Positions 37,446 through 57,300 of a DNA stretch of 64,000 nt are shown piece by piece; the stretch's first letter is position 1; each line of letters opens with the position of its first letter. The notes beneath the pieces were generated by a model. That model did not search any database and had not been told where the DNA came from. It was given only the letters and a program-made list of their open reading frames with translations. A program made the translations under genes and the position numbers. The DNA lies in contig RPFO01000080.1 in NCBI GenBank assembly GCA_009746045.1, forward strand, positions 11,840,670 to 11,904,669, given 5' to 3'. The DNA is from Mesostigma viride (taxonomy: Eukaryota; Streptophyta; Mesostigmatophyceae; Mesostigmatales; Mesostigmataceae).

Positions 37446-39345
37446 GTTCGTCTCGCATCGTAATGCCCTTGATTGGATGTCGTGACCGTCGCGTCGGCGG
37501 CGTTGATACTAGTCGGATTACATCTAGGTATGCGAAAGGTGGCTCTCTTCTTCAACCCGGCAGAGGTGTGGCAAGCAATGAATCCGGCGGGGGGGGGGGG
37601 GGGGGGGGGGTTATTGAAGCAGCAGCGAGCCATTGCACGCTAGCTTTTTTTGCTCCGGTCGCGAAGCATGGAGTTTTGCCCTACTCCATGGTCTTGCCAA
37701 GTTGTCTGTTATCGTTTGTCATGTCTACCTGGGTCCCCCTGCCCTGGGTTTCCCACCTGAACCGGCCTAGTGTAGGTGTGTGCTGCTTTGCCCTACTGCA
37801 GTACAAGCGAACCGCCCCTCCTACAGCACGGCTGGTCCCCTGATTCCACGTTGTGCCCCCTTGGCCGCGTGTGGGCGCAGTCATAACGTGTCACATTTTA
37901 CGAGTCAGCCCATGCCGCCACCACGTGCGTCACCAACATCATGAAGTGCCGCAAGGCCTGTGGTTGATCCTTTGAGGAATGGTAGAACGTAAATGGGCAT
38001 TTGCGTGGGGGTCTGTGGCTGATGGGATCCATGGCAGGTTGGGCTCACATGACGCAGTCGCATGCTTTAATTACTTACTTAATGGCTAATGGGATGTGAT
38101 CATGCCCATCGAGGCAGATGCTTTCATTAGATCCCTACAGTGCAGTGCGCGCGCTTATATAGGGTAGTGTAGTATGCGTGCATCCGAGTTTTGAGCTCTG
38201 TAAACACAATTCAAGAATGCAGATGTGTTTTGCAAGCTATTTGTGCATATTTAATCTTACATTTTGTATATGGGTAGCTGTTTTCGTCAGATTCACATAC
38301 GCACGCACACACACACACACACTTGTGTGCGCGTGCACACAGCAAACATGCACACACATGCAAACGCTCACGCAGACACGCCTTTTGTATGCCTGTTCAC
38401 TGATGCGTGCGCGCGTGTGTATTTGAAAGGTGGCATGCGACTAGTCTGCATTTCTGAATGAGCAAGGCTCTTGTTTCCCTTGGCCCATGCTCCCTCCGCG
38501 CAAGCCTGCTACCGCTGCATCCTCAGTTCTCATGTGTAATGGGTGTCTCAAGGGGCTCGCACTATGCGGCACGGGGTGTGCCCTGTCTTGTCTATTTATA
38601 CCGTTGGTCTTAGGATTTAGTGTGTTGGTCAAGACAGGGCACATCAAAACTTTTATACACACAAGACATAAAGCCAAGCATCACTTCGTTTGGTTCATTT
38701 TACCACCGCAGCTGCCCGATTTCGTTGCGATGGTTGTCGGTACTGTGGTTATGTACGTGTGTTATAAACCGTGTTATGTACAGTGCTACATACCGTGCTA
38801 TATACCGTGGTTATATGTGTGTGTGGTCGTCGGTACTGTGGTTATGTACATCCTCCTCAAAATTTCAAGAATCTGAAGTATTAGAACTTGAGACTCTGGA
38901 TTCAACCTCTACAAGCAGTAGGAGAATCTAGGAGAAAAGAGTAGATCCGAACCACACTCGTAAGATGGGATAAGAACATGTGCCCTAAGATGGGGTTGGT
39001 TGGACCCCAAGGCCCGATCTTAAACATGGCAAGGGGGGTGTACCATGTCCGTGTCGCTATCTTTCTGAAACCCTCCACCCCAGCCACTGCACCCACATCT
39101 CCAAACCCGCCTCCACCCTTCACACACACAGACGCACACGCCCCTAACTGCCTGACCACAGGTACCTATGCTAACCTTCTACAAATGCTGTACTAAAGGA
39201 TCGTCCCTTTCTCATTGTGCCCCCCCCCGCCCCTCCTCCCCTCCTCCCCTTGCCCCCCTCCCTTCCTCCCCCGCCCCTTCTCCCCCTTCCTCCCTCCCTC
39301 CTCCCCTTTCCCCTGCCCTTCTCCCCCCTCCCCTTGCCCCCGCAG
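37446..39345. other. Upstream or first intron of VPS18: simple repeats
   Basis: Holds a 22-base G run (37589-37610), CA/GT-rich sequence (38298-38420) and TGTTATGTAC/ACCGTGGTTATA repeats (38730-38845). At 38707-38732 GCAG-CTGCCCGATTTCGTT echoes the real acceptor and exon start at 39341 (GCAG-CTGCCGGACCTGGAG). A C-rich pyrimidine tract (39217-39340) precedes that acceptor. Confidence 0.5.
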
Positions 39346-39360
39346 CTGCCGGACCTGGAG

Positions 39361-54300: not shown

Positions 54301-57300
54301 CCCTTCCCGCTTGTTATGAATACGATTATTAGACTTTGGCCCCTTCCCCCCGCGTGCGTGTTGGTCTCCCTTCCTTCCCTGGCAACATGGAGGAACTTCT
54401 TGCCCTACGCAGGACGATGAGGACCTCCTGCTCACCTTACTGCCCTCTCGTTCGCTCTTTGCTCCCTTCGTTTGATTCCTGCTCACCTTTGTTTGCTTAG
54501 TTCTCTCTCTCTCTCTCTCTCTCTCTCTCTCTCTCTCTCTCTCTCTCTCTCTCTCTCTCTCTCTCTCTCTCTCTCTCTCTCTCTCTCTCTCTCTCTCTCT
54601 CTCTCTCTCTCCTCCCCCCCCCCCCCCCCCTTCCCTCCCCCCCCTCTCTCTCTCCCCCCCCTCTCCCTCTCTCCCTCTCCCTCTCCCTCTCTCCCCCCCA
54701 CCCCCACCCCCCGATCACACTATGACTACCATCATACCCTCCAGGATGACGAGCGCCGCCTGCTAAACTTCCTGTCCTCTGCCACCAGCTACTCGGACAG
54801 TGATGACGCCAGTGGTGCCAGCTACAGCGGCACGGGGGCAGGGGGTGGCGGCGGTGGCCACCCACGCGTGCTGTACGATCCCAAGTTGGCTCTGCGGCTG
54901 TGCCTCAAGGAGGGCCGCATGGCCGCGTGCGTGGCTATTTATAGCGCGCTGGGTATGCATGAGGAGGCGGTGTCCCTTGCGCTGCAGGTATGGAATATGT
55001 GTGTCATTTGGCGGGTTTAGTTTTAACGAATCGATTGGCGGTGAGAGTTTGACGGTTACTACCGCTATTGTTGTTGTTATTGTCAAGTCTGCCTCGAGCT
55101 GCAGGCAGGAGATTTCAAGCGTTTGCTAGGTTCCGTGTTGCGGGGAGACACTGATTGTTCTTGTTTTTTTTTTTTTTTGTTAATAGAGCAGACGCGCACG
55201 TTGATGTGGCACTGCAGGCGCAGCACACCTGAACAGGGAACTCAGGTAGCTGCTGCCCCCCCCCCCCCCCAATATATATATTGTTAGCGTTCACTTTGTT
55301 CATATTTGCTTGGGTGCTTTCACTCTGATGTAAGTTATCACCATTTATAATATATATATATATATATATATAACACCCACCCACCCGACCCCCTTACCTT
55401 TTCTTGCCCATACTATGACTGTGCTGATAGATGCAGGATTGTGGTTTTGGTGGCGGGACTTTGTTTGTGGTTTCATGTCAGGGCCTGGTTTCATGCCAGG
55501 GCCCATTGGCTTCTTTCCCCTCCTCCCATTCTTTTCTAGCGCATGGACCACCGTTTTTTCCTCGCGCACCCCTCTCCCCCCCCTTCCTCCCCCTCGCTCA
55601 CAGTGGGTGGCCACCCTTGAACCCGGACATCACGTTACTAGCCTTTGAACGTGCTGGGCGTGAGGTTGGTTCCTCATGCATTACCCTGCCCACAGGCATT
55701 GGGCACGCAGGACAATGTTTTTGAACCGGTGCTGATGTCTTTTTGTGGCGCATGCAACCTGTTTGCGTGCATCGCAACGACTTGAACGCAACCGCACTAT
55801 TTGGCATGGGACCAACCCTACTTTCGTCCCTTCAGTTGGTGCGACGCATGCCCTCAGTTTGACGTGGAGCCTATGTATCGTGTTGATCCTTGCAACCCTC
55901 TTGCACATGGATGCCTGCATTTTGACCTGGAGCAATGCTATTAGCCATTAGCCATTGCACAACACCAATGGTTGACCATTCGGCTCTGTGTGCATGCCCA
56001 CAGCTTGGCTTAAAGCTCATGGCCTTATGACCATGGTTGTGTGCGCACACTTTGACCTGGAGCCTATGTCTTGTGGCGGTCCATCCACCCATGTGTGTGC
56101 CGCTCGCCACAGTTTGACCTGGAGCTCGCCAAGGCAGAGGCCGGAAAGCCTGTCGGCGACGACGAGCTGCGAAAGCGGCTTTGGCTGCGCGTGGCGAGGG
56201 AGGTGATTGAGCGCGGTCCCTCTGCTGGCGATGGCCCTCAAAAGATGTCTTGTGCTGGAGACGCCACTAGCAGCAAGGACAAGAGTGAGGGTGCCACAAA
56301 GGGCGATAGCGGGACATCCCCCACGCAGCGGGACAAAGGCCAGGGTGGGGCTGGGGCGGCGCCAGGTGGCAAGCGCGACAACAGCCACATCCGGCGGGCG
56401 ATCCAGTTCCTTGGGGAGACCGACGGCTTGCTCAGGATCGAGGACGTGCTCCCCTTCTTCCCCGAGTTTGTGCTCATCGACGACTTCAAGGTAGGGCGGC
56501 TTTGAGTGCCTGGTTGGCATGCTTGCTGCTGCATCCATGTGCTCATTGATGACTTCAAAAAGGTGCGGGGGGGTACTTTGGTTGTTTGGTTGGCCCACTT
56601 GCCACTGTTACATGAGCTTGTGCGCATGTAGCAGTCTGACTTCAATGTGCGGTGCAGGGTACCATCAGGTTGGATCAATCGGATGTTTGCCTTCCAGAGC
56701 GAGGGAATGGTGGGGGGCACGGGTTTGCAGAGCGGCCCGGCTGCTTCGTATCGTATGGAAGTGTTGTCGTATCGTCTTCTACTCATAATTCCTTTTCCGC
56801 TCCCCGTGCCCAAGACTCCATGCGACACACCCTCCGATTCAGAAGTGATTCCATGACTTAGTCACCATGGCTAACCCGGTTTTTAGTCCCAACCCCAGGA
56901 CGCCATGGCACACAGCATCTTGCCTATTTAAAGAAGAATTTGGCGGTCTTCTCCTTTCATGCGCACGCACGCATGCACGCGCACGCACACACACACACAC
57001 ACACACTCGCACGCACGCATGCGCACACGCGCACCCTCTCCCCCCTCTGTGGTATTCCCATCTTATTCCCATCTTATTCCCATCTTGTTCTCATCTTACT
57101 CCCCCCAGGACGCCATCTGTGCGTCGCTTGAGGACTACAACAATGCGATTGCCTCGTTGCGCTCTGAGATGGATGAGTCGACGCGCCGCGCTGCCGGCAT
57201 CCGCAACGACATCGCCGCCCTCGCCCAGCGCTGCACCGTCGTGCAGCGAGACGAGCCCTGTGCCGCGTGCCGCGCGACGCTCGCCCCCGCCGCTCCCAAG

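Follow-up and report, generated by a model that had tools for sequence, protein, structure and literature searches.

Copies of exon edges and their splice sites in the introns of VPS18 and of unrelated genes of Mesostigma viride

In a 64,000-nucleotide stretch of the Mesostigma viride genome (assembly GCA_009746045.1, contig RPFO01000080.1, positions 11,840,670 to 11,904,669 of the forward strand; hereinafter, the window), the introns of the VPS18 gene were found to contain diverged copies of the edges of their neighbouring exons, splice sites included. These copies are local and in direct orientation, some are present as readable units, similar copies occur in genes unrelated to VPS18, and exon interiors are rarely copied. 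The lengthening of introns is usually attributed to transposons. In this genome, introns are probably lengthened by frequent short tandem duplications that sometimes span exon–intron junctions, with the exon parent preserving the recognisability of the copies. A sizeable share of exon edges would thereby keep a readable record of such growth, and the conserved exon, as a built-in reference for each duplication, would allow intron growth to be measured one event at a time.

Exon-edge copies in VPS18

Edge queries consisting of 30 exon and 15 intron bases were aligned to the adjoining intron, with 100 dinucleotide shuffles as the null; Smith–Waterman alignment was used for the self-comparison of the gene, as self-BLAST loses matches close to the main diagonal. 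Twelve of the 26 edges of VPS18, namely, the starts of exons 1, 4, 7, 9 and 11 and the ends of exons 2, 3, 5, 6, 9, 10 and 12, exceeded all of the shuffles (0/100), 11 of them at z of at least 5.0, and their scores were matched neither by the other introns of VPS18 nor by the reverse strand of the same intron. For these strong edges, the echo is confirmed as real. A preliminary description of the window had counted about fifteen edges with intron copies; the count holds for the 12, is weak for the start of exon 13 (1/100 shuffles) and the start of exon 12 (2/100, but z 8.0 with another window), and fails for the start of exon 10, whose score was reached by 10/100 shuffles. None of the 11 edges outside that earlier list was at 0/100, the best being the start of exon 3 (4/100). 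The three poorly supported edges are what could be said for chance matches; as a general account, chance or an assembly artefact is extremely improbable, and for the strong edges it is already refuted by the comparisons above, by the 70–92% identity of the VPS18 copies to their own edge, which is unlike assembly errors, and by a second contig that shares one of the duplications described below.

The preliminary description depended on exon edges being echoed more often than exon interiors, and this was borne out by a sliding-window comparison, in which a local match at z>4 was found in 36.6% of 145 edge windows vs. 0.5% of 559 windows lying more than 50 bp within an exon. Such matches were also found in 12.9% of 1533 deep-intron windows of VPS18 and, with arrays set aside, in at most about 1% of reverse-strand windows.

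The model of VPS18 was built from reading-frame continuity and GT/AG sites and comprises 13 exons on the plus strand (39346..57927): 39346–39556, 42373–42670, 43583–43760 and 44588–44933 (exons 1–4); 46714–46988, 47716–48069, 48983–49098 and 50844–51149 (exons 5–8); and 51868–52071, 52690–53280, 54745–54987, 56113–56490 and 57109–57927 (exons 9–13), where the position of the exon 10 acceptor is uncertain. Exons 1–8 share one frame and exons 9–13 another, with no continuity from exon 8 to exon 9. Exon 8 contains a run of 14 G at 51043–51056, at which the frame break perhaps sits; it could reflect an error of sequencing, a genuine change in length or a wrongly placed end of exon 8. A protein search with VPS18 gave three distant Vps18-type homologues with PF05131 among 8000 candidates scored. 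No second VPS18 allele was found with an exon 6 query, which matched one place in the assembly, the window's own locus.

All of the copies listed lie on the plus strand, 62–634 bp away from their edge according to the alignments; over all loci together, offsets ranged from 37 bp (in a gene of the CCT chaperonin) to about 640 bp. Among exon ends with their donors, single copies were found for exon 2 (real end 42670; copy at 42736..42767, offset 77 bp, z 10.6), exon 5 (46988; 47027..47074, offset 80, z 10.6), exon 9 (52071; 52124..52160, offset 83, z 9.3) and, as a copy of the exon end, exon 12 (56490; 56516..56584, offset about 70, z 6.4). The end of exon 3 (43760) is repeated at 44005..44053 (offset 283, z 6.7, GT lost), at 44098..44142 (offset 379, GT kept) and, by alignment, at 44301..44335 (offset 573). 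Four copies follow the end of exon 6 (48069), at 48212..48266 (offset 184, GT lost), 48318..48357 (with donor; offset 277, z 9.4, GT kept), 48433..48473 (offset 387, GT kept) and 48515..48560 (offset 469, z 4.1, GT lost). The end of exon 10 (53280) and its donor recur at 53341..53395 (offset 100, z 18) and in two more short copies within 53411..53474 (offsets 142 and 176, z 4–5).

Among exon starts, the copy of exon 1 (real start 39346) at 38700..38738 is the least strong of the 12 (0/100 shuffles, z 4.1), with AG kept. The start of exon 4 (44588) and its acceptor are repeated at 44482..44517 (offset 103, z 5.0). Three copies precede exon 7 (48983), at 48671..48743 (offset 297), 48760..48827 (with acceptor; offset 206, z 12.6) and 48877..48901 (with acceptor; offset 103); the in-frame stops that the preliminary description had noted in several copies were read directly in the first two of these (GAC TAG, GGC TAG). 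Acceptor copies of exon 9 (51868) lie at 51643..51688 (offset 211), in an array of 106 bp × 2.4 found by Tandem Repeats Finder (TRF), and at 51742..51793 (offset 106, z 21.6), and that of exon 11 (54745) lies at 54394..54448 (offset 332, z 7.9). For exon 12 (56113), an acceptor copy was found at 55839..55870 (offset 255, z 8.0) and a second copy at 56038..56063 (offset 62, z 2.9, 2/100 shuffles), and the weak acceptor copy of exon 13 (57109) lies at 56881..56906 (offset 210, z 3.2).

The exon parts of the copies were mostly 8–60 bp long (one alignment set was limited to 60), and with 120-base queries, some weak copy alignments extended to 77–120 bp. The duplicated segments include both exon and intron bases, e.g., 31 + 9 bp, 31 + 17 bp, or 33 exon and about 73 intron bp. 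A fixed exon share near 30 bp per unit was considered and dropped because of the wide spread against unit length; judged by eye, exon bases make up between about 0.2 and 0.8 of a unit. Offsets formed series close to multiples of one unit at the starts of exon 7 (103/206/297) and exon 9 (106/211) and at the CCT edge cctE (76/152/228), and showed no such stepping at the ends of exons 6 and 10. In intron 6, copies of the donor edge occupy the left side and copies of the acceptor edge the right. Introns 1, 4 and 7 contain no edge copies and hold large arrays instead: a 9-bp unit, GAAGAGGAG, repeated 142 times at 39583–40861, which fills nearly half of intron 1, and arrays of 83 bp × 8.5 (44987–45689) and 53 bp × 18 (49488–50450), whose units include donor-like GTATGT or CAG/GTAGAA. 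The latter two arrays are possibly old junction-seeded ones.

Edge copies in chaperonin and adaptin genes

The whole assembly (439.9 Mb, 2243 contigs) was searched for control genes, namely, chaperonin CCT/cpn60 (PF00118) and adaptin (PF01602) genes, the edges of which were picked regardless of repeats. Among the first 25 CCT introns, 12/50 edges were at 0/100 shuffles (2 acceptors and 10 donors, including one edge counted again on a second, probably allelic contig), and in ten adaptin introns, 1/20. Introns cctA 6259 and apD 639 (bad models), masked queries and targets shorter than 120 bp were excluded before counting, and the second contig cctG2, included in the early CCT tests, was omitted from the pooled counts. 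This left as testable 37/39 donors and 32/39 acceptors of paired introns, as well as 18/19 donors and 18/19 acceptors placed singly by splice score. At z>4, the pooled counts were 15/55 for donors, 6/50 for acceptors and 11/430 for exon interiors, with 44/605 and 57/593 in two deep-intron tests (one-sided, overlapping windows; 101/1198 together); by 200 shuffles, they were 16/55, 7/50 and, for deep windows, 49/584 (8.4%). Of the 15 donor positives, cctB 2399 did not pass the shuffle tests (15/100, 6/200). A strong donor/acceptor asymmetry, suggested by 10 vs. 2 of 25 each in the first CCT introns, weakened with more edges to 15/55 vs. 6/50 (Fisher P 0.056). The echo therefore extends to genes unrelated to VPS18, and VPS18 is an extreme case.

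Several of these cases were readable as clean units. At 8983–9469 of one CCT locus (L050, G000:C1702), a 48-bp × 10.1 array (97%) has a unit composed of the 31 bp that end a CCT exon and 17 bp of intron, the donor having been placed by splice score alone. It presents about ten tandem donors at 48-bp steps (cctI) in a frame open for 298 amino acids; since the period is divisible by 3, the use of any donor of the array would probably keep the frame. Arrays of about ten near-equal donors would offer natural tests of how the spliceosome chooses among like sites. Another array in the control genes, of 76 bp × 3.9, spans a donor junction, and a 40-bp × 2 duplication (31 exon and 9 intron bp, 100% identical) in a CCT gene recurs, differing by one or two bases, on another contig that is probably allelic. 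Thus, the proposal that introns were enlarged by local tandem duplications crossing junctions was supported both in VPS18 and in unrelated genes, with clean units of 40, 48, 76 and 106 bp.

Some further observations were made on the control genes. Two contigs (L046 and L047; G000:C887 and C1641) carry CCT gene copies about 96–97% identical, probably haplotypes, in which one intron measures 912 bp on one contig and 4087 bp on the other. A nearly full-length cpn60 match (L009, G000:C2011:1347332–1348840; profile positions 1–489 of 490) occupies a single open frame, in contrast to the chaperonin genes with their many exons; its contig may be a contaminant or come from an organelle. Among the 120 best of 7786 matches, CCT-eta showed 79–83% identity to several mosses and streptophyte algae, the top bit score belonging to a Cocos nucifera entry at 75%. 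In the available text on the published Mesostigma viride genome, the mean intron length is 1141.87 bp, and 30.1% of intron space is repetitive (PMC6947507); the introns studied here agree with it in size.

Proposed origin and preservation of the copies

According to the mechanism proposed, tandem duplication of units of about 40–110 bp would occur generally in the introns of this genome, presumably by slippage or unequal exchange. If a unit spans a donor (exon end and intron start), the outer original donor would stay in use and the second copy would join the intron; acceptors would represent the mirror-image case, and repeated rounds would produce rows of copies and sometimes minisatellites. 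The copies would then have no function and decay, with their exon and GT/AG parts remaining recognisable longest, because the parent of these parts is under purifying selection, while the intron parts of both parent and copy drift; a frozen exon parent would thus explain why the copies appear as a splice site with 10–40 exon bases.

The retention of splice sites was measured on 14 donor copies and, for acceptors, on 6 cases, all located by exon-only queries. In the donor copies, identity amounted to about 0.88 for the 12 exon bases nearest the junction, to 0.93 for G and T each, and to 0.29–0.79 for the next 11 intron bases, as would be expected of neutral relics with a frozen exon and splice-site parent. 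GT was kept in 12/14 donor copies and AG in 4/6 acceptor copies, and together with the open frame of the 48-bp CCT array, this could be taken to mean that the copies are retained because they function as decoy, recursive or alternative splice sites. Such a role, judged from the sequence, would be quite improbable: the retention is roughly as high as expected from the identity of these copies in their exon part, with no clear sign of selection, and in-frame stops or loss of the dinucleotide are seen in some copies of VPS18.

The preliminary description had also suggested that the copying process itself may be tied to splice junctions. Transcription or splicing, through R-loops, breaks or RNA held by the spliceosome, would in that case make junctions, and donors above all, hotspots of duplication. 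TRF arrays (period 20 or more) covered 4/55 donors (7%) and 0/50 acceptors of the CCT/adaptin genes vs. 8.7% of deep intron, and 1/24 internal edges of VPS18 (the exon 9 acceptor) vs. 19.0% of deep intron; the cover at edges was not above that of deep intron, so the arrays are not enriched at junctions, and births were not seen to be enriched there, in small numbers. Moreover, units vary in their exon share, and acceptors outside VPS18 were near expectation. For a hotspot at donors, it can be said that 4/59 arrays in the unselected loci overlap a tested donor and none a tested acceptor, so that all four edge-covering arrays in these genes lie on donors.

Neutral simulations, which are simple models of uniform tandem duplication with a preserved exon, gave edge/deep ratios of 1.36–1.49 in the last runs and 1.35 for donors at the best-fitting deep rate. 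They only partly upheld a preserved exon parent as the sole cause of the edge excess, and a number of results weigh against general duplication with preservation as the full account. The simulated ratio varied from about 0.25 (for acceptors, in a setting barring most acceptor duplications) to 1.9 across settings, and the observed donor/deep ratio was near 3. A roughly 2–3-fold excess at donors is left. The 15/55 donors compare with 4.8 expected from the per-gene deep-intron rate and 6.5 with the factor of 1.35 (P about 0.001); at a preservation factor of 1.9, the binomial P for the z>4 counts was 0.03, and for the shuffle counts (16/55 vs. 49/584 deep), P was 0.0003–0.01 for factors of 1.35–1.9, the last value belonging to factor 1.9; all of these P values assume independent edges. 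Matches scoring 150 or more of 225 were found at 3/55 donors and in 36/1198 deep-intron windows, numbers too small to demonstrate equal births. In VPS18, 7/12 donors and 6/11 acceptors had copies, far above expectation, although this gene was chosen for its striking look. These donor counts, and both kinds of edge in VPS18, also speak for hotspots.

Thus, general duplication together with a preserved exon parent explains much of the pattern, with the donor excess left over. A tie between copying and junctions was not established, as intron-only duplications are common and TRF arrays are no denser at edges; the donor excess remains. We consider junction hotspots unlikely as the explanation. It is similarly doubtful that donors, or both edges in genes like VPS18, duplicate outward in such a manner that splicing or transcription drives intron growth and seeds minisatellites of tandem splice sites.

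Neighbouring features and comparison with known systems

Elsewhere in the window, a 38-bp × 187 tandem array (95% matches) occupies 873–7970, beside an open reading frame (ORF) at 8195–8464 that is transporter-like by eye and has no Pfam match. A minus-strand ORF at 20032–20370 has a YADD motif and no Pfam match; it resembles a reverse-transcriptase fragment. Beyond the 3′ end of VPS18, a minus-strand ORF at 61209–62444 contains a Methyltransf_16 (lysine methyltransferase) domain, the one family above the cut-off in a Pfam scan of ten other ORFs of the window. An Rfam scan at the gathering threshold gave no match.

Duplicated (mutually exclusive) whole exons were considered as a known system and rejected in view of the short exon parts of the copies and the rarity of exon-interior matches in VPS18. 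A closer parallel is the potato RdRp gene, for which the accessible part of the source describes one tandem duplication across an intron–exon boundary that created an extra intron (PMC4974935). The duplications reported here are likewise local and direct, cross an intron–exon boundary with its splice signals, and include exon and intron bases in the duplicated segment; they differ from that single event and its new intron in affecting many edges and genes, more often at donors, and in apparently lengthening existing introns. With introners, as presented in the available text of PMC9860276, they share the supply of intron DNA by a repeated sequence; introners are dispersed over many genes, whereas the copies described here stay beside their own exon within the gene: in a comparison limited to VPS18, the other introns do not match the 12 strong edges. 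Among the matches listed in the open-licence literature, as far as their available text goes, neither a widespread lengthening of introns through copied junctions nor minisatellites seeded by donors were reported.

The gain of introns through tandem duplication of exonic sequence with AGGT was reportedly described by Rogers in 1989, Gao and Lynch in 2009 and Hellsten in 2011, all as cited in PMC4974935. There, as here, local tandem duplication including splice sites reshapes introns. In the AGGT model, however, the ends of the new intron resemble the exons on their opposite sides, whereas the copies considered here resemble the adjacent edge. Cross-resemblance of the AGGT type (intron start vs. 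downstream exon start, intron end vs. upstream exon end) was absent when 51 introns (12 of VPS18 and 39 of CCT/adaptin genes) were compared with mismatched pairs: 1/51 introns per comparison was above the 99th percentile and none above the 99.9th. Exonic tandem duplication has also been described, in the part of the source that was available, for near-intron pairs of Drosophila (PMC2891723).

The copies are also comparable with intronic minisatellites, since head-to-tail arrays of 20–110-bp units are common in the introns studied. Such arrays, as detected by TRF, account for a minority of the echoed edges, in VPS18 for the exon 9 acceptor only among edges with copies. What distinguishes some of them from ordinary intronic minisatellites is that a living exon edge forms the first unit, so that the array consists of splice sites in a row.

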